Source of the DNA: a virus
Strand: one strand, 5' to 3'
DNA: 24,636 bases
Virus record (IMG/VR): IMGVR_UViG_3300047548_001091
Coordinates: 1 to 24,636 of that record
A model generated the notes under the pieces. That model was given only the letters and a program-made list of their open reading frames with translations. It was not told where the DNA came from and ran no database searches. Both the position numbers and the translations under genes were made by a program. Positions 3,026 to 23,281 of the stretch are shown in pieces; the first letter of the stretch is position 1, and the number at the start of each line of letters is the position of its first letter.

Positions 3026-3040
3026 TGAAGGGAGAAAACA

Positions 3041-3883
3041 GTGACAATTCGAATTCTTAACTACAATATGAAGCCGGTATATGTTGCTTTCAGCACGTTT
3101 CCCGGTGGCGAGGAGCATGTTCGCATTGGAGATTTGCAAAACAGCAATGTCGTCCGCGTTGAAGCAAAGATCACAAGCTCTTCTGAGTTTATGCGTCTTG
3201 TAATGGTTCTGGACGCCTTGAATCGGATGGAAGTTATGTGGGACTTGTTCATACCTTACTTCCCATATGCTCGTCAGGATCGCGTTTGTAATACCGGGGA
3301 GGCATTTTCTCTTGAAGTTGCCTCGACGATTCTCGATAGCATGTATAAAGTCGGATGTACATACAAGGTTGCAGATGTCCATTCTCCTGTTATCAAAACG
3401 CTCATTTATATTACTGAAACTCCTGCGTTTGACATTATTTCAAACTGGGCAAGGCTACACAACGTCCTGAAAACTGGAGAATATGTATTGGTAGCTCCTG
3501 ATAAAGGAGCAGTGAATAGAGTTTCCGAAGTGTCTAAAACACTGAACCTTCCTTTCATTCAATGTGATAAGGTACGCGACCCAGCCACTACCAAGATTAC
3601 AGGGATGAGTGTTCCGGAAAACCTTGATCCGAATGTCCATTACATGATCGTTGATGACATTTGTGATGGTGGCCGTACATTCATTGAAGTGGCTAAAGCC
3701 ATGAAGGCCAATGGAGCTACTAAGATCAGCTTGTACGTGACACATGGCATCTTCAGTAATGGGATGGGGGAGCTTTCAAAATATTTTGAGAGCATCTGGA
3801 CAACCAATTCATTCCATGATAGGATGCTTGGCTCATATAACGAAATGGAAATCCATTTCTTCGATATTTTTTCAATCATGTAA
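3041..3883 (+). CDS. prs: PRPP-synthetase homologue; candidate ADP-ribose pyrophosphate synthetase (Adps) of NARP1
   Basis: A 280-residue ribose-phosphate pyrophosphokinase-family protein, starting at GTG with GGGAGA 8 bases upstream. Visible family motifs: PYARQDR at 75-81 (ATP site), DVHSP at 112-116 (position of the metal-binding DLHA motif), APDKGA at 152-157, a flexible-loop region KVRDPATTKITG at 177-188, and VDDICDGGRTF at 204-214. The last is the ribose-5-phosphate loop, which in cellular PRPP synthetases reads DTGGT; here it is DGGRT, with an inserted Arg. The protein is about 35 residues shorter than cellular enzymes. It lies 11 bases before the NadV homologue. In NARP1 the homologous enzyme phosphorylates ADP-ribose to ADP-ribose pyrophosphate. 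The alternative is ordinary PRPP supply for NadV. Family call is firm; substrate is inferred. Confidence 0.88.
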   Translation: MTIRILNYNMKPVYVAFSTFPGGEEHVRIGDLQNSNVVRVEAKITSSSEFMRLVMVLDALNRMEVMWDLFIPYFPYARQDRVCNTGEAFSLEVASTILDSMYKVGCTYKVADVHSPVIKTLIYITETPAFDIISNWARLHNVLKTGEYVLVAPDKGAVNRVSEVSKTLNLPFIQCDKVRDPATTKITGMSVPENLDPNVHYMIVDDICDGGRTFIEVAKAMKANGATKISLYVTHGIFSNGMGELSKYFESIWTTNSFHDRMLGSYNEMEIHFFDIFSIM

Positions 3884-3894
3884 GGAGAAACAAA

Positions 3895-5505
3895 ATGTAC
3901 ACCGCTAACCCAATTACCGCTTTTGACTTTTACAAGGCCGATCATCGCCGTCAGTATCCTGATGGTACGGATATGGTCTACAGCAACTTCACCCCACGTT
4001 CAGATCGTCTTGCTAACGTCATTCGTGACCAGTGGGATGGTAAGATTGTTTTTGCTGGACTTCAGGCTTTGTTGATTCAGTTCTTCGTTCGGGAGTTCAA
4101 TGAGAAGTTCTTCAACCAGCCCAAGGAAAAGGTTGTGAAGGCATTCGCTCGTCGTATGCTGACCAGTCTTGGTCCGAACAATATTGGCACGAAGCACATT
4201 GAAGCTCTGCACGATCTGGGGTATTTGCCTATCCACATCAAGGCTCTCCCTGAAGGCTCTCGTGTGCCTATGAAGGTGCCCGTTCTGACGGTTAAGAACA
4301 CCCACCCAGATTTCTTCTGGTTGACAAATGCTTTTGAAACCGTTCTGTCTCTTGGTTTGTGGAAGGCATGTACCAGTGCCACTATTGCCAAAGAATATCG
4401 CAAGCTGCTGGATCGCTATGCTGCAATCACGGGAACTGATCCTGCATTTGTTGATTGGCAAGGCCACAACTTCTCCATGCGAGGAATGTCTGGTATGGAT
4501 GATGCTGTTGTGGCAGACTTTGGCCACCTGTTGTCTTTCTTTGGCACAGACACTATTCCCGGCATTGATTTTGCCGAAGAGTATTACGTAGCTGATGCAG
4601 AGAAGGAAATGATTGGTGGCTCTGTTGCTGCTACTGAGCACTCTGTCATGTGCATGGGTATGCAGGATGGGGAAGTAGAGACCTTCCGTCGTCTGATTGA
4701 AGACACCTACCCTGAAGGTATTGTCTCGATTGTTTCCGACACTTGGGATTTCTGGAAGGTGATGACGGAGATTGCTCCTTCTCTGAAGGACAAGATCATG
4801 GCTCGTAATGGTAAGGTGGTCTTCCGTCCCGACTCTGGCGATCCTGTCAAGATTCTGACCGGGTACACCCACAACGATGACGTGAATATCTTTGAGGATG
4901 CCCGCTATGAAGTTTATCTCTCAATAGATGGTAACTACTACCTGAAGGAAGATTGGGAGGGCAATGCTTGGGGGGATCGTTTTGTCAAAGAAAACGCCAA
5001 GCCTATCAGTGAGGTTGAAGTAAAAGGTGCTGTACAAGTCCTCTGGGAGACCTTTGGTGGCACAGAGACCTCTACAGGCTACAAGATGCTCGATAGCCAC
5101 GTAGGATTGATCTATGGTGACTCTATCACTCTGGAACGTGCCAAGGCCATTCTGGAGCGTCTGGAGGCCAAGGGCTTCGCCTCTGGCAACGTGGTGTTTG
5201 GGATTGGCTCTTACACCTACGAGTATGTGACCCGTGACACCTTTGGCTTTGCTATGAAGGCTACTGCTGGCTCTGTCAACGGAGAGCTTCGTGAAATCTT
5301 CAAAGACCCGGCCACTGACAGCGGGACTAAGAAGAGTGCTAAGGGCCTTCTGCGAGTGGAGTTTGAAAACGGCAGCTACGTGTTGTACGATCAGCAGACA
5401 CCGGAGCAGGAAGAACAGGGATGCTTGCAAACTGTGTTCAAGGATGGTAAGCTGTTCAACGGACAGACGCTTGGTGAGATTCGCCAGCGTCTCAAGAACC
5501 AGTAA
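3895..5505 (+). CDS. nadV: Nicotinamide phosphoribosyltransferase homologue (NadV); candidate Namat of NARP1
   Basis: A 536-residue NAMPT-family protein. Visible motifs: DFYK with Tyr13 and the YSNFTPRS segment (29-36); FSMRGMSG with Arg196; GTDT with Asp219, the residue that selects nicotinamide over nicotinic acid; TEHS with His249, matching catalytic His247 of human NAMPT; and RPDSGDP with Arg311 and Asp313 of the substrate site. All key residues are present, so it should be active. The usual reaction joins nicotinamide to PRPP to give NMN; in NARP1 the homologue joins nicotinamide to ADP-ribose pyrophosphate and yields NAD+ directly. The gene follows the PRPP-synthetase homologue with an AAGGAGA site and is presumably co-transcribed. 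It is richer in G and C at third positions than its small neighbours. Confidence 0.93.
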   Translation: MYTANPITAFDFYKADHRRQYPDGTDMVYSNFTPRSDRLANVIRDQWDGKIVFAGLQALLIQFFVREFNEKFFNQPKEKVVKAFARRMLTSLGPNNIGTKHIEALHDLGYLPIHIKALPEGSRVPMKVPVLTVKNTHPDFFWLTNAFETVLSLGLWKACTSATIAKEYRKLLDRYAAITGTDPAFVDWQGHNFSMRGMSGMDDAVVADFGHLLSFFGTDTIPGIDFAEEYYVADAEKEMIGGSVAATEHSVMCMGMQDGEVETFRRLIEDTYPEGIVSIVSDTWDFWKVMTEIAPSLKDKIMARNGKVVFRPDSGDPVKILTGYTHNDDVNIFEDARYEVYLSIDGNYYLKEDWEGNAWGDRFVKENAKPISEVEVKGAVQVLWETFGGTETSTGYKMLDSHVGLIYGDSITLERAKAILERLEAKGFASGNVVFGIGSYTYEYVTRDTFGFAMKATAGSVNGELREIFKDPATDSGTKKSAKGLLRVEFENGSYVLYDQQTPEQEEQGCLQTVFKDGKLFNGQTLGEIRQRLKNQ

Positions 5506-6977: not shown

Positions 6978-7241
6978 ATGAGCAATAGTAACGATGAAAT
7001 TTCAGGTGCAATTTTTTTGTTTGGGATAGTTGTCGGATTTGTCATTATTTGGGGAATCCAGCAAATTGGCGGAGAAAAAATTTTTCCTGAAGTAATTGAC
7101 ACTGCAATTGAAATATGCTCTAATAACGGAGGAGTAAAGTTCTTCGTCGCTGAAGTTGCAGAAGAAGGAATAGAAGTCGAATGCAACAATGGCGTTTATG
7201 GCGATACTTCGTTTTACAAAAAGGAGAAGAATGATGGCTGA
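6978..7241 (+). CDS. Small single-span membrane protein (87 aa)
   Basis: One hydrophobic segment (about residues 10-28, GAIFLFGIVVGFVIIWGI) follows a short acidic start, giving a small inner-membrane protein with a larger soluble C-terminal tail. The tail holds two cysteines and an acidic patch. The 3' end overlaps the HD hydrolase gene by 11 bases. A small membrane protein in an early phage cluster could act on lysis, superinfection or host transport; the sequence does not discriminate. Confidence 0.6.
   Translation: MSNSNDEISGAIFLFGIVVGFVIIWGIQQIGGEKIFPEVIDTAIEICSNNGGVKFFVAEVAEEGIEVECNNGVYGDTSFYKKEKNDG
7096..7124 (+). promoter_or_regulatory. Possible internal promoter before the HD hydrolase gene
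   Basis: TTGACA (7096-7101) and TCTAAT (7119-7124, 5 of 6) are 17 bases apart, within the membrane-protein gene and about 107 bases before the hydrolase start. It is reported because it has the same perfect -35 as the stronger promoters further right; a chance match inside coding sequence is possible. Confidence 0.3.
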
Positions 7242-7701
7242 TTCCACACTGATTTCCAGAGCTGCAAGTTTTGCAGTTGAAAAGCATGGCCGTCAGATGT
7301 ACGGTAAGTATCCGTACTCCTACCACTTGATTGAAGTGGCCGATAATGTCAAGGAGATGCATCGAAAAAATCTTTTCGGTTTCGGTGGGCTTGATAAAAA
7401 CGTCCTTATTCAGATCGCATATCTCCATGATGTGCTTGAGGATACTGATGTCGAATACATTGAGTTGTGTGAGGAATTTGGCATTGAAATTTCTTCTCGT
7501 TGCCTCCTCTTGTCAAAGAAAGAAACTCCTGTTTACGAAGAATACATTAAAAAAGTGATGTCTGATCTTTACAGTCATGCAGTAAAGATTGCAGACACCT
7601 ATGCCAATCTTCACAACTCTTGGAAGGCCGGTAACGTTAAGAGGATCAAGAAGTACACTGATCAACTGAATCTTCTTCTCGGTGATATTAATGAGTCTTG
7701 A
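7231..7701 (+). CDS. HD-domain hydrolase, MESH1/SpoT-like (candidate ppGpp or nucleotide hydrolase)
   Basis: The start is the double ATG at 7231/7234 behind AAGGAG. The 156-residue product keeps the HD metal site: His32 (YHLIEVA), His66-Asp67 (LHDVLEDTD) and Asp122 (KIADTYANL). The LHDVLEDT and KIADTYANL wording is that of RelA/SpoT hydrolase domains and the small stand-alone MESH1 family, which remove pyrophosphate from (p)ppGpp; some MESH1 enzymes also take NADPH. It is close to the size of a stand-alone small alarmone hydrolase. Its end overlaps the deaminase-fold gene, so the two are probably made together. Loss of ppGpp would suit a phage wanting active transcription. Substrate is inferred. 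Confidence 0.8.
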   Translation: MMADSTLISRAASFAVEKHGRQMYGKYPYSYHLIEVADNVKEMHRKNLFGFGGLDKNVLIQIAYLHDVLEDTDVEYIELCEEFGIEISSRCLLLSKKETPVYEEYIKKVMSDLYSHAVKIADTYANLHNSWKAGNVKRIKKYTDQLNLLLGDINES

Positions 7702-11537: not shown

Positions 11538-12083
11538 ATGGCCCTTACTCTGTCTTATGTCGAAAACGTCGCCAACGAGTTGATTGCATTTCATCAGCTC
11601 AATGGAAACATTTCTTCCGATTGGAAGTTCAAGTGGAATCGTCGTTCTCAAGCACTTGGCCTTTGCTCTTACAAGGATTCAACGATTCAGTTGAGTAACA
11701 AGTGGGCTTCAGTTCTTTCTGAAGTTGAACTCCGTGATACCATTCTTCATGAGATTGCACATGCAATGACTCCGGGCGACGGGCATGGTACTAAATGGAG
11801 GATGGCATGTGTACAAATTGGTGCAAATCCAAAGCGGCTTGTCGATGTTCCTAAGGACGCAGCTCAGGAAATCAAAAAGAAAACTGTCAAGTATTTCATC
11901 GTTTACAAGTCTGATAGCGGAATTGAGAAGGTAGGTTATCGCGAAAGGATTAAGGTTAGCCTTTACGGACGGTCTATTTTCAACCGTCCCGAAACAAAGG
12001 GCAAACTTTTCTACGTTGAAGCTGACAAGTTTGATCGTCCGGACGTAGAAAAGTTCCTCTTCAAGGGAAACCCCGTCCTTTAA
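11538..12083 (+). CDS. SprT-like zinc metalloprotease
   Basis: The ATG at 11538 has CAGGAG 7 bases upstream and is preferred to an in-frame TTG. The 181-residue protein has HEIAH at residues 71-75 and a third His in GDGHG (His83), the HExxH...H zinc site of the SprT/Spartan family, preceded by the strand-and-helix pattern typical of the domain (LRDTILHEIAHAM). In cells, Spartan proteins cleave DNA-bound proteins; a phage copy could clear proteins from replicating or packaged DNA, which is inference. A C-terminal zinc ribbon found in some SprT proteins is absent. Its stop codon overlaps that of gp14 on the other strand. Confidence 0.8.
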   Translation: MALTLSYVENVANELIAFHQLNGNISSDWKFKWNRRSQALGLCSYKDSTIQLSNKWASVLSEVELRDTILHEIAHAMTPGDGHGTKWRMACVQIGANPKRLVDVPKDAAQEIKKKTVKYFIVYKSDSGIEKVGYRERIKVSLYGRSIFNRPETKGKLFYVEADKFDRPDVEKFLFKGNPVL

Positions 12084-12937
12084 CTCTCACTGAAGGGATT
12101 GTTCTCAGAGAATGAGATCAATCCCTCCTCTACCTTTTCTTCAGTATAATCATTGTCATTCATCATTGTATCTCTACCGACAGAGCTACCTTCAGATGCA
12201 ATATTTCTACTTGCAGTATCTCCAACAATCGGAGAAAGAGGATTCAATTCACCTGAAATCTTTGATAAGACAAGTTCATTCGTCGTAGAGTTGAAGAATA
12301 CAACTTCTCCTCCAAATCCTCCAAGCTGGGATACCTGTTCTCCGGGAACGAATGTTCCTGCACCAGCTTCAAGAATGATCGTAGTAGTCAATGCAAAGTC
12401 ATTGTAATCATCGATCTCTTCAATCCCAGTATTGAACTCTTCTCCAGTGTATTCGAAGTTCTTCACAGTGACAGTCCAAATGTACAGTTTTCCAAGCTGA
12501 TAGAATTGTTCTTCATTGCGAACGTTCGTGATCTCCATGGCACGACGGCGATTGTCAATAGCCCTAGGAAGCACCAGAACGTCCCCTTCACGAGGTCTTA
12601 CAACCTCAGGGTACTTGGATGTCACTTCTTCACTGAAACGCCTCATAGCGACGGCAAAGGTGGCTGAATCACGTATCTCCATCCCGAACTTTGAAAGGAA
12701 CTGGCCATCGTCTTGCCAGCTCTGCACATTCTCCATATAAAATTCCACAACAGACGCGGAATTGAATGAGGAAATCTGATCCTCTCCGAAGAATGAATCG
12801 AAGTTAGTCAAGTCTCTCGGAAGATAATAAAGGTCGATTCCTTTGCACTGGATAGACTCAATGATCAGGTCTTCAGCTAAAGATTGATCAAACTGGAATG
12901 CTGTATAGAAATCGCTGAAGTGTGGATTGGTAGCCAT
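12080..12937 (-). CDS. 14: Neck protein gp14 (T4 family)
   Basis: A 285-residue protein with the T4 gp14 pattern near the N-terminus: LAEDLIIESIQCKGIDLYYLPRDL (split here as residues 21-43), FGED at about 50-53, and PREGDVLVLP further on. gp14 forms part of the head-tail neck with gp13 and is added after DNA packaging. The length is near the T4 protein (256). A GAGAG ribosome site precedes the ATG, and the gene follows the 637-aa gene by one base, so both are one transcription unit. Its TAA overlaps the SprT-like TAA in a palindromic TTAA. The C-terminal tail is acidic and divergent. Confidence 0.85.
   Translation of the reverse strand: MATNPHFSDFYTAFQFDQSLAEDLIIESIQCKGIDLYYLPRDLTNFDSFFGEDQISSFNSASVVEFYMENVQSWQDDGQFLSKFGMEIRDSATFAVAMRRFSEEVTSKYPEVVRPREGDVLVLPRAIDNRRRAMEITNVRNEEQFYQLGKLYIWTVTVKNFEYTGEEFNTGIEEIDDYNDFALTTTIILEAGAGTFVPGEQVSQLGGFGGEVVFFNSTTNELVLSKISGELNPLSPIVGDTASRNIASEGSSVGRDTMMNDNDYTEEKVEEGLISFSENNPFSES
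12094..12126. repeat. Inverted repeat at the end of gp14, possible two-way terminator
   Basis: AGGGATTG (12094-12101) pairs with CAATCCCT (12119-12126) around a loop that itself contains TTCTCAGAGAA. It lies within the last codons of gp14 and just past the SprT-like stop, where convergent transcripts meet. On the + strand a loosely T-rich tract (CCTCTACCTTTTCTT) follows; on the - strand there is none, so its role as a terminator is uncertain. Confidence 0.35.
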
Positions 12938-12938
12938 T

Positions 12939-14852
12939 TTATCTCTCGATTATACTTCTAAAGGAAGACTTCTTCCTTGATTCAAAAAGTGATTTATCTG
13001 GATTCCGATACATAGTATGGGAGACTTCGAAGTCTTTATTTCTTCCTTTATTCTCAACGAACCCATGACCCTTATAAAACTTTGTCAGTCGTGAAACAGA
13101 TGTGGCTCCAAAATCGGTAGAAGGAGTTAGTACAACCTTCTTTCCAGTCATATCTGCGTAATTAGTAATATCTCTCATGGCGTTTGACCCATAACCTTTC
13201 TTCCTAAGATTCTTAAGAACTACGAGCTTATGAAGGGTAATTGAATGTTCATTTTCACTGGCGTCAATTTGAGTACCGTAAAGATTGTCATGTCTCCTTT
13301 TAATAAACTCAAGGTTATCGCCGTGCTCATTCTCTCTTAGAAGATTTCCATTCTTATAAAGTCTCTCAGCCTTAAGATTTCCATTTTCATCAAAATCTTT
13401 ATGAATGCCGTGAAGTTCTCCAGCTTTATATTTTTTGATCCTTGCAATGTTTCCATTCTCATGGAAATCTAGATGCTCTCCTTCTTCTAAACCTTTGTGA
13501 AAAATTCCTGTAGACATCAATTGCCCATTCTCATAGTACTTATGTATTTTCATGGCATGTCCATTACCATACGGAACTTTCTCTTTAGTTCTGTACAGGG
13601 GATTTCCTTCAGGTCTATTATGTGGGTAATAATGAGATGACCTTATGAAGTTTCCTTTTTCATCATTTTCAATAACACTTTCAAGGTTTCCAGAAGGGAA
13701 ATAAGACTTTTCAGTTCCTATCTGGTTTCCTTCATGAAAGTTACTTTCGTTTTGCAAGTTACCATTTTCATGATAACTTTTTTGAAGTCCATGAAGTTCT
13801 CCATTTTTATAATTAGTTTTTCCTGAAATTTTTCCAGTCTTGTAGTAACTAATTTTAGGGCCATTGAGTTTACCATTTTCATAAGTAGTTAATGAAATTG
13901 GAGTACCGTTATTTGAAGTTGTCTTCATTATCCCATGTGTTTCTCCGAAAGAATTTCTAGAATATTCTGTCGTCGTTGAACCATTATTTTCAATATGATG
14001 AGACGAGAAATCGTCATTGAAAGTTATTTTATGTTTAGTTCTTCCTTTAACAAAAGTCATTTCCTTTGAACCGTGTGCAAACCCTACTAACTTCCCAATA
14101 TATTGACCGGGAGCAGTGTGCATTATCGAACGGTTCTTCATAATGTATTCAGGGACGTCGATTCTATTCAATTGTCTCTCGTCTCTGAACTCGTGATTTT
14201 CAATATCCATGCGAGGGTCTGCAAGAACAGCAAACTTTCTATTGGGCATTGTAGGATGCTTAGAGGTATGCTCAATCGTATAGAAAGGATGTTTCTGACC
14301 TTCTGTATATTGGTCATATCTTTGCTTTCCAAGTTCGCTCTCAGCACTCACACACCATGTAGCTTTACCTTGGCAGATTCCGTGGTAAGGATTCTCTTTC
14401 TGTAGACTTGCTGCCTTTACCATACTTCCATGGCTGAAATGCTGGCGAATGATATGAGTGTCGCTCTTATGGATTACTTTAGTATCAGCATCTTCCATTT
14501 CAGCCTTTGTAGGAGCTGTTCCAACATGAGGTGATACAGCTGCCTCAAGGTCTCCAAAGGTCTTATATTGATTGGCTTTCTTCTTCTGGAGCTTGTCTTT
14601 GATTGCAGGCTTGGCAAACTCAGTCATCACCCTCTTGACATGCTCATGATTCTCTGCTACGCCTTCTCCGGCCACCTCGCGATTGGCAAGCCATTCCATG
14701 TCCCCCAATGACTTGTTATTATCTGGCAATGCGTTATGATAGAGGTGATTGAAGACCTCAGGATGAAGACCGTGATTGGCATGAAAGCGGTCTCTCATAT
14801 CATCTACAGCGGCTTCTGTCAAGAAGGATTCGAAAAGGGCGATAAGTGTCAT
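12939..14852 (-). CDS. Candidate packaged virion protein: WC-motif domain, YwqK-type repeats and C-terminal GNAT acetyltransferase domain
   Basis: A 637-residue protein in parts. (1) N-terminus MTLIALFESFLTEAAVDD: the LTE|A at residues 11-14 fits the T4 prohead protease (gp21) cleavage pattern LxE or IxE, like the capsid-targeting sequences of T4 internal proteins. (2) Residues about 155-245 hold GKATWCVSAESE ... YDQYT and a beta-rich part, a module seen in phage proteins of unknown role. (3) Residues about 320-508 are tandem repeats near YENGKLNGPKISYY and YHENGNLQNES, the YwqK/MORN-like pattern. (4) Residues about 535-616 are a GNAT domain, with RKKGYG (550-555) as the acetyl-CoA loop and KFYKGHGF (591-598). 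It lies beside gp14 and behind a late-promoter-like element, so a virion role is likely. Packaging and injection are inferred. Confidence 0.72.
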   Translation of the reverse strand: MTLIALFESFLTEAAVDDMRDRFHANHGLHPEVFNHLYHNALPDNNKSLGDMEWLANREVAGEGVAENHEHVKRVMTEFAKPAIKDKLQKKKANQYKTFGDLEAAVSPHVGTAPTKAEMEDADTKVIHKSDTHIIRQHFSHGSMVKAASLQKENPYHGICQGKATWCVSAESELGKQRYDQYTEGQKHPFYTIEHTSKHPTMPNRKFAVLADPRMDIENHEFRDERQLNRIDVPEYIMKNRSIMHTAPGQYIGKLVGFAHGSKEMTFVKGRTKHKITFNDDFSSHHIENNGSTTTEYSRNSFGETHGIMKTTSNNGTPISLTTYENGKLNGPKISYYKTGKISGKTNYKNGELHGLQKSYHENGNLQNESNFHEGNQIGTEKSYFPSGNLESVIENDEKGNFIRSSHYYPHNRPEGNPLYRTKEKVPYGNGHAMKIHKYYENGQLMSTGIFHKGLEEGEHLDFHENGNIARIKKYKAGELHGIHKDFDENGNLKAERLYKNGNLLRENEHGDNLEFIKRRHDNLYGTQIDASENEHSITLHKLVVLKNLRKKGYGSNAMRDITNYADMTGKKVVLTPSTDFGATSVSRLTKFYKGHGFVENKGRNKDFEVSHTMYRNPDKSLFESRKKSSFRSIIER

Positions 14853-16046: not shown

Positions 16047-16682
16047 ATGAATATTGATTTTCTGAACGATGTTTGGTACTTCAAGTACTTTAAAGACAAT
16101 AAAACAATTTACAGAGTCAGGCCTGATCACTGTAGTCCTAATAATATATTGGTGTCTTGGGATGGATATGGGAACGCTTCTTATTCAATCATGCAAGCCA
16201 AAGACTTACTAAAAGATGGAACTTGGCTACAGTGTAGTGCAAATGGTATTATTTTTATAAAAAGGAAAGAGGAGGCTAAAATGCCACATTTCACCAAAGA
16301 TATGTTAAAGACTGGAATGCGACTTGTAACACGCGAAGGGGAAGTCCGCGTGTTCTTTAAAAATATGTGGATTTTACATCAGCAAAAAGAGGATGGTGTT
16401 ATTACAAATAAAAATGGTCAATACACCTCTATTTCTTATTATGAAGATTCCTTAAAACATAGTCATAATGACCGGTACGACATTGTTGAGATTTACTCAG
16501 GCGCTGAGTCCGATAAACTTGAGCTGATGATGGACTTTGACTTCAAGGGGTCGTTGTTATGGAAGCGCGAGGAAAAGTCAAAGGCTGAAATCAAGTTGGA
16601 AGAAGCCATGGCAGCTCTTGAAAAGGCAAAGGAAGATGTTGAAGCAGCACGAGCTGAGTTGAGAGGAGAAACTAATGGCTAA
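16047..16682 (+). CDS. Hypothetical two-part protein (211 aa) with a strong internal start
   Basis: I use the ATG at 16047, one base after the previous stop; a TTG at 16020 is rejected and an ATG at 16038 is possible. Residues 1-78 (WYFKYFKDNKTIYRVRPDH) form one unit. From residue 79 (MPHFTKDMLKTGMRLVTREGEV) a second unit begins that resembles a recurrent stand-alone phage protein starting FTKxxLKTGMRVxxRxG. It ends in a long Glu/Ala/Lys coiled coil (about 176-208). Because a near-consensus ribosome site sits exactly before residue 79, both a full and a short product may be made. Confidence 0.6.
   Translation: MNIDFLNDVWYFKYFKDNKTIYRVRPDHCSPNNILVSWDGYGNASYSIMQAKDLLKDGTWLQCSANGIIFIKRKEEAKMPHFTKDMLKTGMRLVTREGEVRVFFKNMWILHQQKEDGVITNKNGQYTSISYYEDSLKHSHNDRYDIVEIYSGAESDKLELMMDFDFKGSLLWKREEKSKAEIKLEEAMAALEKAKEDVEAARAELRGETNG
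16271..16283 (+). promoter_or_regulatory. Internal ribosome-binding site and ATG within the 211-aa gene
   Basis: GGAGG (16271-16275), within AAAGAGGAGGCTAAA, lies 5 bases before an in-frame ATG at 16281. It is one of the best ribosome sites in the window, better than that of the 16047 start. The product from here (134 aa) would be the second unit alone. Confidence 0.6.
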
Positions 16683-17025
16683 GATATTTGTAGGGATTCC
16701 TTACGGTTTCGATCCAGTGTTTCAACAGAAATCGTATGAAACGACTCTGTTGATCTGTGCGAGAATCTTGAAGGAGGGAAATATTCCCGTATGTCCTATA
16801 CAGATTTGTCACCCTCTTGTCAAGAGTTATGGCGACAAGATGAACATACCCAATGAAGAATGGGAATCTATCTGCAATACTTACATGGATGGTTGTGATG
16901 CCATGTATGTTATCTGTAAGGATGGGTTTGTACGTTCTCCCGGACTGTTAAAGGAGATTAACTACGCTGAAAGGATCGGAATCCCTATCTCATTCCATCA
17001 TGAAGAAAGTTTCTTCTTTAGTTGA
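16675..17025 (+). CDS. Nucleoside 2-deoxyribosyltransferase-like protein
   Basis: A 116-residue protein overlapping the previous gene by 8 bases behind GAGAGGAG. Features of the nucleoside 2-deoxyribosyltransferase-like families of phages (DUF1937/DUF4406 type) are visible: a first strand with IFVGIPYGF, a helix and then GNIPVCPIQICHPLV, NEEWESICNTYMDGCDAMYVI, and GFVRSPGLLKEINYAERIGIPI, where Ser-x-Gly and the Glu of KEI occupy the usual active-site positions. Such enzymes break or exchange the glycosidic bond of nucleosides; the phage members are mostly untested. A base-, nucleotide- or NAD-related substrate is possible. Confidence 0.65.
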   Translation: MAKIFVGIPYGFDPVFQQKSYETTLLICARILKEGNIPVCPIQICHPLVKSYGDKMNIPNEEWESICNTYMDGCDAMYVICKDGFVRSPGLLKEINYAERIGIPISFHHEESFFFS

Positions 17026-18881: not shown

Positions 18882-19049
18882 ATGATGGTAACGCGGGAAA
18901 ATTACATAACTGTACGGGATGACATGGAAGAAGTTGTCGATATCATGTTTGATGGAAAGTGGGTAACTGCTGAAACAAGTTCAAGTGCAGCTGAAAAATG
19001 GATCAGTGAGGATATCAAGCGAAGGAACTCCGTCAAAGAAGGTCTTTGA
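18882..19049 (+). CDS. Hypothetical small protein (55 aa)
   Basis: The double ATG at 18882/18885 follows GAGAGG and the previous stop by one base; the in-frame extension to 18792 is a shadow of the preceding gene. The product is acidic with aromatic residues near the start and no motif. It is the last gene of the + strand island; its stop lies inside the hairpin at 19021-19062, and it overlaps the opposing gene by 17 bases. Confidence 0.55.
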   Translation: MMVTRENYITVRDDMEEVVDIMFDGKWVTAETSSSAAEKWISEDIKRRNSVKEGL

Positions 19050-19062
19050 AAGAAGTTCCTTC
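19021..19062. terminator. Two-way hairpin at the convergent gene ends
   Basis: Outer arms GAAGGAACT (19021-19029) and AGTTCCTTC (19054-19062) and inner arms TCAAAGA (19033-19039) and TCTTTGA (19043-19049) nest as one imperfect hairpin with a 3-base loop. The inner arms contain the stop codons of the two converging genes. Position and symmetry suit termination from both sides. A T-rich tract (CACTTTTTCT) follows only some 10 bases downstream on the + strand, so the terminator mechanism is less certain than the hairpin. Confidence 0.6.
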
Positions 19063-19695
19063 CTTAGGAAACACTTTTTCTGCATGGTCGAAAAAGTTAG
19101 AGCCATCTCTTTTCAAGAGGTGGCGTTTTCTTTTGTCAATCTTCCATGCTTCATCAGGCTCTACGTCACCGAAGTTTGCAATATGAGCGCCATGATTGAC
19201 AATCAGGCTGGTCTTTTGCTCTGGAGTCATTCTCTTCACGAGAACCTTACCAGCCTTTGCAAAGTACATGTATTCCCCGTCATGTACCTTCTTAACAGTT
19301 GAATCTGCTAAGTGGTACGAAGCCATATGGTTCAGCCATGGTACAGACTTCTTATGAAGCAATTCACCGATTGAGTCTTCATCAGGCTGAATCTTCGACA
19401 GCTTTTCTCCAGAGAACTTGAAGACATACCCATGACGGCCTCCTCGTTCCTCTTCCTCAGGAGACATCTTGTAACCGGCCATATCACCGCCAATTGCATA
19501 AATCTGAGCGTAATGGAGGTGAGGAGTTGCGTATACAGCGCCTTTCACGGGAGCAAGCATACCTTTACGTTCCTTCTCAGGAACCTTGATACCTTTCTTT
19601 ATGATAGACTTTCCAGCCTCAGGATTTGACGTCCCGTGATAGAAAGTCATACCTTTTACTTCTTCTGTAGGATCAACTGACTCACGAATATCCAT
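19033..19695 (-). CDS. ADP-ribosyltransferase-like protein
   Basis: A 220-residue protein with MTFYHGTSNPEAG near the N-terminus (His20 in FYHGTS), then KSIIKKGIKVP and GAVYATPHLHYAQIYA (Tyr55). This HGTS ... ILxxGI ... VYxTxxxxxAxxYA order is that of H-Y-type ADP-ribosyltransferases, which move ADP-ribose from NAD+ to a target. The expected third residue (Glu, Asp or Gln) cannot be placed with confidence. The C-terminal third is basic. It overlaps the upstream gene by one base in the gp13 operon, so late expression and a possible place in the virion are likely. T4 also carries an ADP-ribosyltransferase, Alt, in its head, but no homology to Alt is visible. Confidence 0.65.
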   Translation of the reverse strand: MDIRESVDPTEEVKGMTFYHGTSNPEAGKSIIKKGIKVPEKERKGMLAPVKGAVYATPHLHYAQIYAIGGDMAGYKMSPEEEERGGRHGYVFKFSGEKLSKIQPDEDSIGELLHKKSVPWLNHMASYHLADSTVKKVHDGEYMYFAKAGKVLVKRMTPEQKTSLIVNHGAHIANFGDVEPDEAWKIDKRKRHLLKRDGSNFFDHAEKVFPKEGTSFKDLL

Positions 19696-20333
19696 TAATC
19701 TTCTCTTACTTCGAATCTACGCTTTCCATTTAGCTCAGTGAAAAACTTTCCGCCTGCATCTCCCTTGAATCTTCCGACAACTTCAACTTTCCCTTTCTTT
19801 TCTCCTGAAAGATAATGGAATGAAGCAATATCATCTCCGGCTGGCTTATGAAGGATAGATTCCTGTTCGATATGCTCACCAAGATCATTGGAGATAGGAT
19901 GGCTTCCGGAAATGGTCTTAAAATGATCCAGAATGCCCTCAGGACGATAGTTAGGAGAATCCTGATGGTTCACTACCACGAACGAGTTTTCATGCACTGG
20001 GTATGCGTTAGGTTCTCCATGGTTCTCAATATAGCCACCTTTAACAGGGATGTAACTGAAGTTGTTGGAATCAAGATGATCCTTCAGCATAGCAGTCTGA
20101 CGAGCATTTCTTTCAGTTCTAGCCTGATCACTCTCGCCTTCATGATATCGTTCACCGGACACAATGACGATCTCAGCCTTTGGGTCTTCAAAATGGGTCT
20201 TCAGACGACTAAGACTCTTTCTGGCAGTCATTTCAGTCAGAGATAGGGACTCTGCGATTGTTTTTACGTAGTCTACTGGAGCCTCATCACTTTCAATCAG
20301 AGTACCATAGATTTGTTCGATTTGCTTTCTCAT
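19695..20333 (-). CDS. Conserved phage protein of unknown function (212 aa)
   Basis: The central part reads IVIVSGERYHEGESDQARTERNARQ, split here as 55-79, then KGGYIENHG (98-106) and NSFVVVNH (116-123). This pattern, with an early strand, an ERNxRxxxMLxxHL helix, GGYIEN and a later FVVVN strand, recurs in T4-like and other phage virion-region proteins and resembles the DUF3293 type. The N-terminus has LIE|S at 12-14, a possible prohead-protease site. It lies 11 bases after gp13 with AAGGA upstream, hence probably late. Function unknown. Confidence 0.6.
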   Translation of the reverse strand: MRKQIEQIYGTLIESDEAPVDYVKTIAESLSLTEMTARKSLSRLKTHFEDPKAEIVIVSGERYHEGESDQARTERNARQTAMLKDHLDSNNFSYIPVKGGYIENHGEPNAYPVHENSFVVVNHQDSPNYRPEGILDHFKTISGSHPISNDLGEHIEQESILHKPAGDDIASFHYLSGEKKGKVEVVGRFKGDAGGKFFTELNGKRRFEVRED

Positions 20334-20344
20334 TTTATTTTTCC

Positions 20345-21088
20345 TTATGCCACTACAAATGCTACAGGAACGTTATGATTCCTGATTTCTTGTTCGTATT
20401 TCTCAATATCTCTTACAGCACTCTCATATATAGCATCGCCATTCAAGACAATACCGGAAGGGAGCTGTAAGTTCTGGAACTTTCTGAGGTTATTTCCCCA
20501 TACTCTCTGACCATAGGCGGTTGTAAGGGAGCGTAGCAGCCTATTTCCCCACAAAGCAGTATAGGTATCAGGGTCAAGGAATGCATAGCACTCAGCAATC
20601 AGATAATCGCCAACTGAGAACTTTCCCATGTCAGTGTCAAGATAAAGTCTGCCGGTACTCTGTCTGAATCTTGAAAGAGACTTTTCGCCAAGTAGCATAG
20701 ACATTTCAGCAAGATACTGGTTGACGATGAAGTATCCTGATGCATTTCCGAATTGAACTAAGTCCCAAACGGAAGCAGCATTGAACTGATACTGGAAGGA
20801 CATGAAGTTGTTTGATCCTGTTCCAATCACGCTTGAAGGGATTACCTTAATGATAGCTTGGACGTTTTCGGGAACGACAACATAACCATTATCGATGTCT
20901 GTCTGCGTTAAAACAACCTTCAAGAATGTTCTCTCAGTACCATTTTCATGGTATTCCTGCCAGAACTGCAATGCATCATCAACTACAACTTCCCATTGTT
21001 CTGGGGTTACATTGACTTTGATAGCAGGCTCGCCAAGCTGTGCCTTGCAATGATCGATCAATTCCTGTCTACTTGTAGGGAGTGCCAT
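20345..21088 (-). CDS. 13: Neck protein gp13 (T4 family)
   Basis: A 247-residue protein with the gp13 pattern: a start RQELIDHCKAQLGEPAIKVNVTPEQW, then VDDALQFWQEYHENGTERTFL (about 36-56), and LQLPSGIVLNGDAIYESA near the end, matching T4 gp13 (309 residues) in order and wording. gp13 joins gp14 at the head-tail neck. It is shorter than T4 gp13, with most of the loss in the middle. Its ATG overlaps the previous stop by one base. It is separated from gp14 by about 7.4 kb, in contrast to T4. Confidence 0.85.
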   Translation of the reverse strand: MALPTSRQELIDHCKAQLGEPAIKVNVTPEQWEVVVDDALQFWQEYHENGTERTFLKVVLTQTDIDNGYVVVPENVQAIIKVIPSSVIGTGSNNFMSFQYQFNAASVWDLVQFGNASGYFIVNQYLAEMSMLLGEKSLSRFRQSTGRLYLDTDMGKFSVGDYLIAECYAFLDPDTYTALWGNRLLRSLTTAYGQRVWGNNLRKFQNLQLPSGIVLNGDAIYESAVRDIEKYEQEIRNHNVPVAFVVA

Positions 21089-21498: not shown

Positions 21499-21513
21499 CA
21501 GTCATTGATGGCT

Positions 21514-21522
21514 TATTTAGAG
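21514..21522 (-). promoter_or_regulatory. Late promoter element before the LRV/gp13 operon
   Basis: On the - strand this reads CTCTAAATA, identical to the element at 14873-14881. It lies 28 bases upstream of the ATG at 21486, the expected distance. It overlaps the 5' end region of the opposite-strand gp4 leader. Confidence 0.6.
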
Positions 21523-21528
21523 AGACTA

Positions 21529-21969
21529 ATGGCTTACACTGGAAGATTCTATCCGAGGAACCCATCTAAGTATAAGGGCAAATTGGATGACATTGTCTAT
21601 AGGTCTAGCTGGGAGAGGCTTCTATTTTCATGGTGTGACGAATGTCCGGACGTGAAGTATTGGTCATCGGAAGAAACCGTTATCCCTTACGTTTGCTCTA
21701 CCGACAATAAAGTCCATAGATACTTTATAGACTGCACTATAGAGTTTACATCAGGAACTAAACTTCTAGTCGAAGTAAAGCCAAAATGTCAGACTGTCAA
21801 ACCTAAGATGAAGAAGGGCAAGCGTACCAAGACTTTCTTGGTAGAGGCTTTCACCTACACTAAAAACGCATCTAAATGGAAGGCAGCTCAAGAATATGCA
21901 AAGAAACACGGTATGGTATTTCAGATTTGGACTGAAGATACATTGAGAAACCTCGGGATTAAAGTATGA
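21529..21969 (+). CDS. 4: Head completion protein gp4 (T4 family)
   Basis: The start is set at ATG 21529, not at 21508 or 21505, because MAYTGRFYPRNPSKYKG then aligns with the T4 gp4 N-terminus MAYSGKWVPKNISKYRG, giving 146 residues against 150 in T4. Further matches are IVYRSSWERLLFSW (22-35), SSEETVIPYVC (46-56), YFIDC (66-70) and LVEVKPK (80-86). The Asp and Glu-x-Lys arrangement resembles a nuclease-type core. gp4 acts at the portal side late in head maturation. The short overlap ATGAG with the next gene indicates an operon. The upstream ATG at 21508 may be a duplicated start-like sequence. Confidence 0.9.
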   Translation: MAYTGRFYPRNPSKYKGKLDDIVYRSSWERLLFSWCDECPDVKYWSSEETVIPYVCSTDNKVHRYFIDCTIEFTSGTKLLVEVKPKCQTVKPKMKKGKRTKTFLVEAFTYTKNASKWKAAQEYAKKHGMVFQIWTEDTLRNLGIKV

Positions 21970-22631
21970 GCCAGATAAACGCTAACAAAGCCGGATGGTC
22001 GATCTTTGATGAAATATATTACAAAGGCGTCATGTCTGGTCAGCCAGCATATGACAATAGAAAGAGCCTTGAATGGTTCAGGGAATACATCAAGAACAAT
22101 GTAAGAACTGCCAATGCGTTCAAAGCAGTATCAGATCGTCTTGAGCCTAAAATTACAATCGGTCAAATGTACATTTTTAAGTACTATGCAAAGTATGCTG
22201 ATGAACTTGACTACTGGGATGCCGTTCCATTGATTTTCCCATTTGCTGATGAAGGCGAAACCTTCTTAGGGATCAATCTCCATTATGCTCCCCCGAAAGC
22301 TAGAATTGTTATCATGAAGGCTCTCTATACTTTGATCAGTGATACGAAAATGGACCAGAAAACCAAACTTCGTCTTACTTATAAGAAGTTGCAGAGAATG
22401 TCCTCATTTCCTTATTTTAAACCTCTTGTAAAGAGGTATCGTAAGGATCATGTGAGATCGCTTTTCGTTAAGGTAGAAGTGAGATATTGGCCAGTTGCCA
22501 TTTTCTTACCCATTGCAAAATGGCAGAAGCAGAATGCCAATACCGTTTATCGTGATTTTAATACCGGTACGAGAGCCGCAAGAAATACACAAGTGAAGAA
22601 ACTAAGAAAAGTTGGGAAGGCTAAAATATAA
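21966..22631 (+). CDS. Conserved phage virion-region protein (221 aa)
   Basis: The ATG overlaps the gp4 stop (ATGA). The centre, MYIFKYYAKYADELDYWDAVPLIFPF (about residues 68-93), then FLGINLHYAPPKARIVIMKAL (about 99-120), is a strong phage family pattern: MYxFxYxAKxxxxLxYWDxxPLxxP with LGxNLHYxPxxxR. Members lie in tail and baseplate gene clusters of T4-superfamily phages. I cannot name a T4 counterpart with confidence; the position after gp4 is that of gp53, but the sequence does not look like T4 gp53. The basic C-terminus may touch DNA or a partner. Confidence 0.65.
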   Translation: MSQINANKAGWSIFDEIYYKGVMSGQPAYDNRKSLEWFREYIKNNVRTANAFKAVSDRLEPKITIGQMYIFKYYAKYADELDYWDAVPLIFPFADEGETFLGINLHYAPPKARIVIMKALYTLISDTKMDQKTKLRLTYKKLQRMSSFPYFKPLVKRYRKDHVRSLFVKVEVRYWPVAIFLPIAKWQKQNANTVYRDFNTGTRAARNTQVKKLRKVGKAKI

Positions 22632-23281
22632 TGTTTGATACAACTAAACTGAGGGAGAGTCTAGCACTCTCCAATCCAGCCTCACCGGCTTATTTTGAAC
22701 TTCGATTCGTTAAACTGCCTAACATATTCTTAGGCTCAAATCCTGCTGTTAATAAGTTCATTGTTAACAGAGGAGGACGAATTCAGAAATGGGGAGATAA
22801 TTTCCAAGACTTCAAGTTTAGATGCTCCGAAACAGACCTCCCTGCAAGGCAAATGATGACTCAGGAAAGAAGGTATGCAGGCCCTCAGAGACTTATTCCG
22901 TATGGAGTTGTCTATTCAACATTGAACGTCAATCTCATCGAAGGTAAGAACCTTAGAATGAGAGAACTGTTTGATACTTGGCAGGATTGTATTTTCGGAA
23001 CATCTGGAACTAGAGATAACCAAGTATACAGACCTCAATACTACGATGACGTCATTGCTGACCTTATGCTTGATGTCTATAGCAAAGATGGTAAGTTGGT
23101 AAGGTCTTACCTGATAACCGACGCTTTTCCGGTGTCTGTCAACCCGTCACAGTTGAGCTGGGCATCCGATAATCAGGTAATGACAATCCCGGTAGAATTC
23201 GCTTTCCATGAGTTTATTGGAAAATCTGAATGGAATAATAGTAGACAGGAAGGATCGGATTTCAATCCTAATAGAACCTAA
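22631..23281 (+). CDS. Tail-tube-type or baseplate tube protein (216 aa)
   Basis: The ATG overlaps the previous stop. Conserved wording, such as FKFRCSETDLPARQMMTQERRYAGPQRLIPYG (two runs, 61-80 and 81-92), FDTWQDCIFG, YYDDVIADLMLDVY and SQLSWASDNQVMTIPVEF, is that of T4-superfamily tube-fold proteins (gp19/gp48/gp54 group). These form or start the inner tail tube. Which member it is cannot be settled; the genomic place beside the hub gene gp26 favours a baseplate-tube role. No cysteine cluster or enzymatic motif is seen. Confidence 0.65.
   Translation: MFDTTKLRESLALSNPASPAYFELRFVKLPNIFLGSNPAVNKFIVNRGGRIQKWGDNFQDFKFRCSETDLPARQMMTQERRYAGPQRLIPYGVVYSTLNVNLIEGKNLRMRELFDTWQDCIFGTSGTRDNQVYRPQYYDDVIADLMLDVYSKDGKLVRSYLITDAFPVSVNPSQLSWASDNQVMTIPVEFAFHEFIGKSEWNNSRQEGSDFNPNRT

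Follow-up and report, generated by a model that had tools for sequence, protein, structure and literature searches.

Two adjacent genes carried by an uncultivated T4-type myovirus very probably, judging from their sequences, form a NARP1 operon comprising Adps and Namat (Table 1). By analogy with verified relatives, Adps would pyrophosphorylate ADP-ribose at its 1-hydroxyl with ATP as the donor, yielding ADP-ribose pyrophosphate, from which Namat would make NAD+ in a single reaction with nicotinamide. In an infected cell, the two enzymes would restore NAD+ from the two products set free by NAD+-cleaving defences (TIR, SIR2 or SEFIR effectors), countering systems that kill such cells through NAD+ destruction. 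As NARP1 is already known and relatives of both genes occur in well over a thousand public phage records, we claim no new kind of system, and the pair is a solid but ordinary addition to known NARP1.

The stretch of DNA analysed (the window) is an entire IMG/VR virus record of 24,636 bases and probably represents only part of a larger genome. Its structural genes are of T4 type (Table 1), and the nearest matches of the DNA end protector were those of Sinorhizobium phages phiM12, phiM7 and phiN3 (41%). The Adps and Namat candidates sit within a run of same-strand genes, flanked by small same-strand ORFs of mostly unknown function, and 11 bases separate the stop codon of the first from the start codon of the second. 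In addition to the Shine-Dalgarno-like site preceding Adps, AGGAG-type sites were found 5' of the Namat start (about 3883–3887) and of the start of the next gene. A promoter/terminator scan gave little information, showing modest enrichment of promoter-like sites and terminator-like sites no more numerous than in shuffled sequences.

Table 1. Features of the Adps–Namat pair and T4-type structural genes in the window.
Feature	Position	Strand	Basis
Shine-Dalgarno-like purine-rich site, 5' of Adps start	3030..3034	+	read in sequence
Adps candidate, PRPP-synthetase fold, 280 aa, GTG start	3041..3883	+	homology, tree, specificity columns, model
D209-G-G-R-T-F214, altered ribose-5-phosphate loop (E. 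coli Prs DTGGTL)	3665..3682	+	alignment
Namat candidate, NAMPT/NadV fold, 536 aa, ATG start	3895..5505	+	homology, tree, residues
Arg38 codon; aligned with SPbetaL1 Namat Arg40, clamp-loop residue stacking on adenine	4006..4008	+	alignment
Namat insertion, about 48 residues (323–370), predicted disordered	4861..5004	+	alignment, prediction
GSYTYEYVTRD, residues 438–448, Namat selectivity-clamp helix motif	5206..5238	+	alignment
Neck protein, T4-type	12080..12937	-	
Head-tail adaptor, T4-type	20345..21088	-	
Head closure, T4-type	21505..21969		
DNA end protector, T4-type	21966..22631		
Tail tube, T4-type	22631..23281		

Elsewhere in the window, several other products showed similarities: an HD-domain protein that looks like the small hydrolases of alarmones ((p)ppGpp/ppApp) (7189–7701, plus strand); a protein like DUF1937/nucleoside 2-deoxyribosyltransferase (16675–17025, plus strand); and a product that matched the S-adenosylmethionine lyase family at sub-threshold level (19695–20333, minus strand; E 0.003, below the gathering score). 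The gene adjoining the neck gene (12939–14852, minus strand) encodes 637 aa with NG-rich, MORN-like repeat units, as read by eye, and an acetyltransferase-like C-terminus. PADLOC returned no useful match.

The first-pass annotation had described a PRPP-synthetase homologue 11 bases upstream of a NAMPT/NadV homologue, and both ORFs are indeed present with homology far beyond chance. The Adps candidate matched phage and cellular ribose-phosphate pyrophosphokinases (phrog_619, 1e-74; TIGR01251, 8e-37), and the Namat candidate matched phage nicotinamide phosphoribosyltransferases (phrog_448, 3e-206) and PRK09198 (6e-174). An AlphaFold2 model of the Adps candidate (mean pLDDT 95) adopts the fold of PRPP synthetases and its top PDB fold matches were PRPP synthetases and their relatives; the alignments used for structure prediction consisted solely of the window and retrieved-locus rows. 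In the PDB, the Namat candidate scored best against 9w5x/9w5w (528 bits), compared with 215 bits to mammalian NAMPT, and the 9w5x sequence is identical to a gene of phage SPbetaL1 (100% over the 313 residues searched), identifying it as the SPbetaL1 Namat. Because both proteins match the broad Prs and NAMPT superfamilies, and relatives are annotated accordingly in public records, homology alone cannot separate NARP1 from ordinary nicotinamide salvage, in which a true PRPP synthetase would feed a true NAMPT (NadV) and an NMN adenylyltransferase of the host, or of an unseen part of the phage genome, would complete NAD+. Namat, moreover, can still make NMN from PRPP in vitro, with roughly half the activity of human NAMPT (PMC12774641), so a PRPP-based role is conceivable.

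Phylogenetic placement, in which branching of both proteins with ordinary Prs/NadV would have refuted the NARP1 reading of the first-pass annotation, put both proteins with the verified NARP1 enzymes. The trees took as verified references the pairs of SPbetaL1 (PMC12774641) and DyoEdafos (PMC13232231), for which activity has been demonstrated; the remaining rows were further pairs from phages and bacteria, NAMPTs, and housekeeping PRPP synthetases drawn from E. coli, two archaea and nine bacterial genomes. The Adps candidate grouped with both verified Adps (46 rows), apart from 13 PRPP synthetases (SH-aLRT 99), and the Namat candidate with both verified Namats (52 rows), apart from 12 NAMPT/NadV proteins that include KVP40 and a mammalian NAMPT (SH-aLRT 100); in each case the group is one side of a branch, and calling it a clade requires a root on the opposite side. 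These were quick trees with a poorly resolved inner order, above all for Adps, and the place of the Adps candidate, which shares at most about 41% identity with other Adps, is poorly resolved within its group.

Alignment across the 46 Adps and 13 PRPP synthetase rows showed no variation in either group at K177, R179, H114, D205, D206 or T213, and ATP-dependent pyrophosphate transfer should therefore be intact. The ribose-5-phosphate loop, on the other hand, had been described as replaced, and the alignment bears this out: D224-T-G-G-T-L229 of E. coli Prs corresponds to the altered window loop (Table 1), so that the window reads DGGRTF where PRPP synthetases have DTxGT-L. No residue is shared between the 46 Adps rows and the 13 Prs rows at two columns, Gly210 and Phe214: the former is Gly, Arg, Phe or Tyr in Adps and Thr or Ser in Prs, and the latter is Phe in every Adps row (46/46) and Leu, Ile or Met in Prs. 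The proposal that the loop favours Adps over a plain PRPP synthetase is thus strengthened, as the loop tells the two enzymes apart throughout the family, with VDDICDGGGTF in DyoEdafos and VDDLSSFGGTF in SPbetaL1 among the verified enzymes. A second argument, that the protein is about 35 residues short, holds as a measurement (280 aa against 315 aa in E. coli) but is not diagnostic, since PRPP synthetases of archaea have chains of similar length in the PDB (about 285 aa), and we have discarded length as evidence for Adps.

Both the loop and the clamp signature accompany pairs from a spread of phages. Ten more phage records were sampled across the ranking: the clamp region was of Namat type (GS or GA) in every pair and no loop read DTxGTL, although some sequences diverge, with the loop VDDICDGAASF in ICP1 and clamps ending in SRD in Aci01-1 and Acj9. 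At one bacterial locus, by contrast, a clamp-less NAMPT (GGALLQKVNRD) adjoins a synthetase with an intact IDDLVDTAGTL loop, a contrast that amounts to essentially one independent case. Most other loci were gathered by similarity to the window Namat, and the count of clamp and loop co-occurrence is for that reason not unbiased. A pattern search of IMG/VR with the Adps protein returned nothing, the patterns being too narrow for a family this divergent, and loci were reached via Namat instead; the two phylum searches drew largely the same genomes and are treated as one sample.

The Namat candidate carries both the catalytic residues and the adenine clamp. The contacts to nicotinamide and ribose, and the clamp, are known from the published Namat–NAD+ structure (PMC12774641). 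Residues Arg196, Asp219, His249, Arg311 and Asp313, which the first-pass annotation had listed as kept, align with R192, D215, H245, R306 and D308 of the SPbetaL1 Namat; also matching are F193, S194, A246, G408, D409, G438, S439, T446, R447, D448, D11 and Y13 of the window protein. The nicotinamide and ribose contacts checked are kept, apart from Ala362, replaced by Ser (Ser410 in the window; Ser is found in most Namats), and Phe392, replaced by Tyr. In the clamp helix, Tyr440 and Tyr444 occupy the two adenine-contacting positions, and position 6 of the motif is Glu, where Gln or Asn is usual, although Glu also occurs in related sequences. A PRPP-specific NAMPT/NadV would lack the adenine clamp and group with NAMPT, whereas the window protein has the clamp and groups elsewhere; KVP40 NadV and cellular NAMPTs have GG[AG]LLQ at the clamp-helix site and a different loop. 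With the clamp present, the ribose-5-phosphate loop altered, both proteins outside the Prs and NAMPT groups and no NMN adenylyltransferase found in the window, the salvage explanation appears very unlikely.

A NAMPT-family gene would also be expected in a NARP2-type pathway, the combination of NAMPT with an NMN adenylyltransferase known from KVP40-like phages. However, KVP40 NadV lacks the clamp, carrying GMGGGLLQQLDRD in its place, and although KVP40 NadV and cellular NAMPT share the NAMPT fold and the catalytic His, Arg and Asp with the window Namat, they are only 32–36% identical to it and form a separate group (SH-aLRT 100). Searches for an NMN adenylyltransferase (PF01467) and for NUDIX gave no match within the 24.6-kb window, itself a genome fragment, and the pair therefore does not look like NARP2, which we regard as exceedingly improbable. 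A search of the window for a RyR domain, run with no positive control, also gave no match.

The window pair can be set beside the two experimentally verified phage systems. SPbetaL1, a Bacillus phage with a verified NARP1 (PMC12774641), has the same Adps–Namat gene order, although it is a phage of a different type. Its Namat is 52% identical to that of the window, with the same clamp helix and catalytic residues and with Arg40 equivalent to window Arg38, and its Adps has the same catalytic set and likewise a non-DTGGTL loop; the two Adps proteins, however, are only 25% identical, the window protein belonging to the DGGxTF loop subtype. DyoEdafos, a Mycobacterium phage whose Adps and Namat are active in vitro (PMC13232231), has an Adps loop almost identical to the VDDICDGGRTF of the window and a Namat 50% identical to that of the window (clamp GSFTYQHNTRD), but a cADPR glycosidase, RyDEP, lies between its two genes, whereas nothing lies between those of the window. 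The 48-residue insertion in the window Namat is absent from both verified Namats, SPbetaL1 included, and from two bacterial Namats aligned in detail. As insertions of other lengths occur at the same site in other phage homologues (Magnus, GAP31, PaoP5, FelixO1 and L005), a hypervariable loop seems a better description of it than a new domain; being predicted disordered, at a site where several phage homologues vary, it was discarded for now as a functional novelty.

The closest relatives of the window Namat are bacterial proteins (about 58–65% identical), most with an Adps homologue nearby, from Verrucomicrobiales, alphaproteobacterial, cyanobacterial and Bacteroidota genomes or MAGs. A chromosomal bacterial NARP1 pair, that of Paenibacillus foliorum, is known to be active (PMC12774641). 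More widely, clamp-bearing Namat homologues are common in bacterial genomes and MAGs (loci L097–L176 and L203–L247), spanning Bacteroidota, Pseudomonadota, Verrucomicrobiota and others, and many have an Adps homologue nearby. One locus in a record named Acinetobacter phage MD-2021a (L084) looks bacterial (fepC, an AraC regulator and TauE) and has the gene row Adps–Namat–NMN adenylyltransferase/ADP-ribose pyrophosphatase.

This distribution bears on what the chemistry might be for. The pair could serve mainly as auxiliary metabolism that keeps NAD+ high, for example by recycling ADP-ribose from phage ADP-ribosyltransferases, and not as counter-defence. The same pair is abundant on bacterial chromosomes, where its role is unsettled, and because of this frequency and the bacterial origin of the closest Namats a broader metabolic role is conceivable. 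The window also encodes a 220-aa protein (19033–19695, minus strand) with weak similarity (25%) to a phage protein that carries an ADP-ribosyltransferase annotation, and this product is possibly an NAD+-consuming enzyme of the same phage. Published NARP1 pairs nevertheless rescue cells from NADase defences (PMC12774641), and both roles can coexist; we consider a mainly metabolic function rather unlikely. The evidence thus favours the NARP1 reading of the first-pass annotation, with catalysis and anti-defence activity remaining predictions from the verified relatives.

The most useful by-product of this analysis, and the part worth following, is the Adps loop signature. According to PMC12774641, the structure of Adps is unsolved and its substrate selectivity obscure. 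We regard it as an evenly balanced proposition that the loop swap (Thr225 to Gly, Phe, Tyr or Arg and Leu229 to Phe; typically CDGGxTF for xDTxGTL) is a main determinant by which a PRPP synthetase becomes an ADP-ribose pyrophosphokinase, and that it also provides a simple sequence test by which many phage and bacterial 'ribose-phosphate pyrophosphokinases' would be re-labelled as Adps. With the signature in hand, exchanging two to four residues offers a direct test of selectivity. For the phage itself, the finding is that an uncultivated T4-type phage carries a complete candidate pathway for rebuilding NAD+, and its hosts therefore probably use NAD+-depleting defences.
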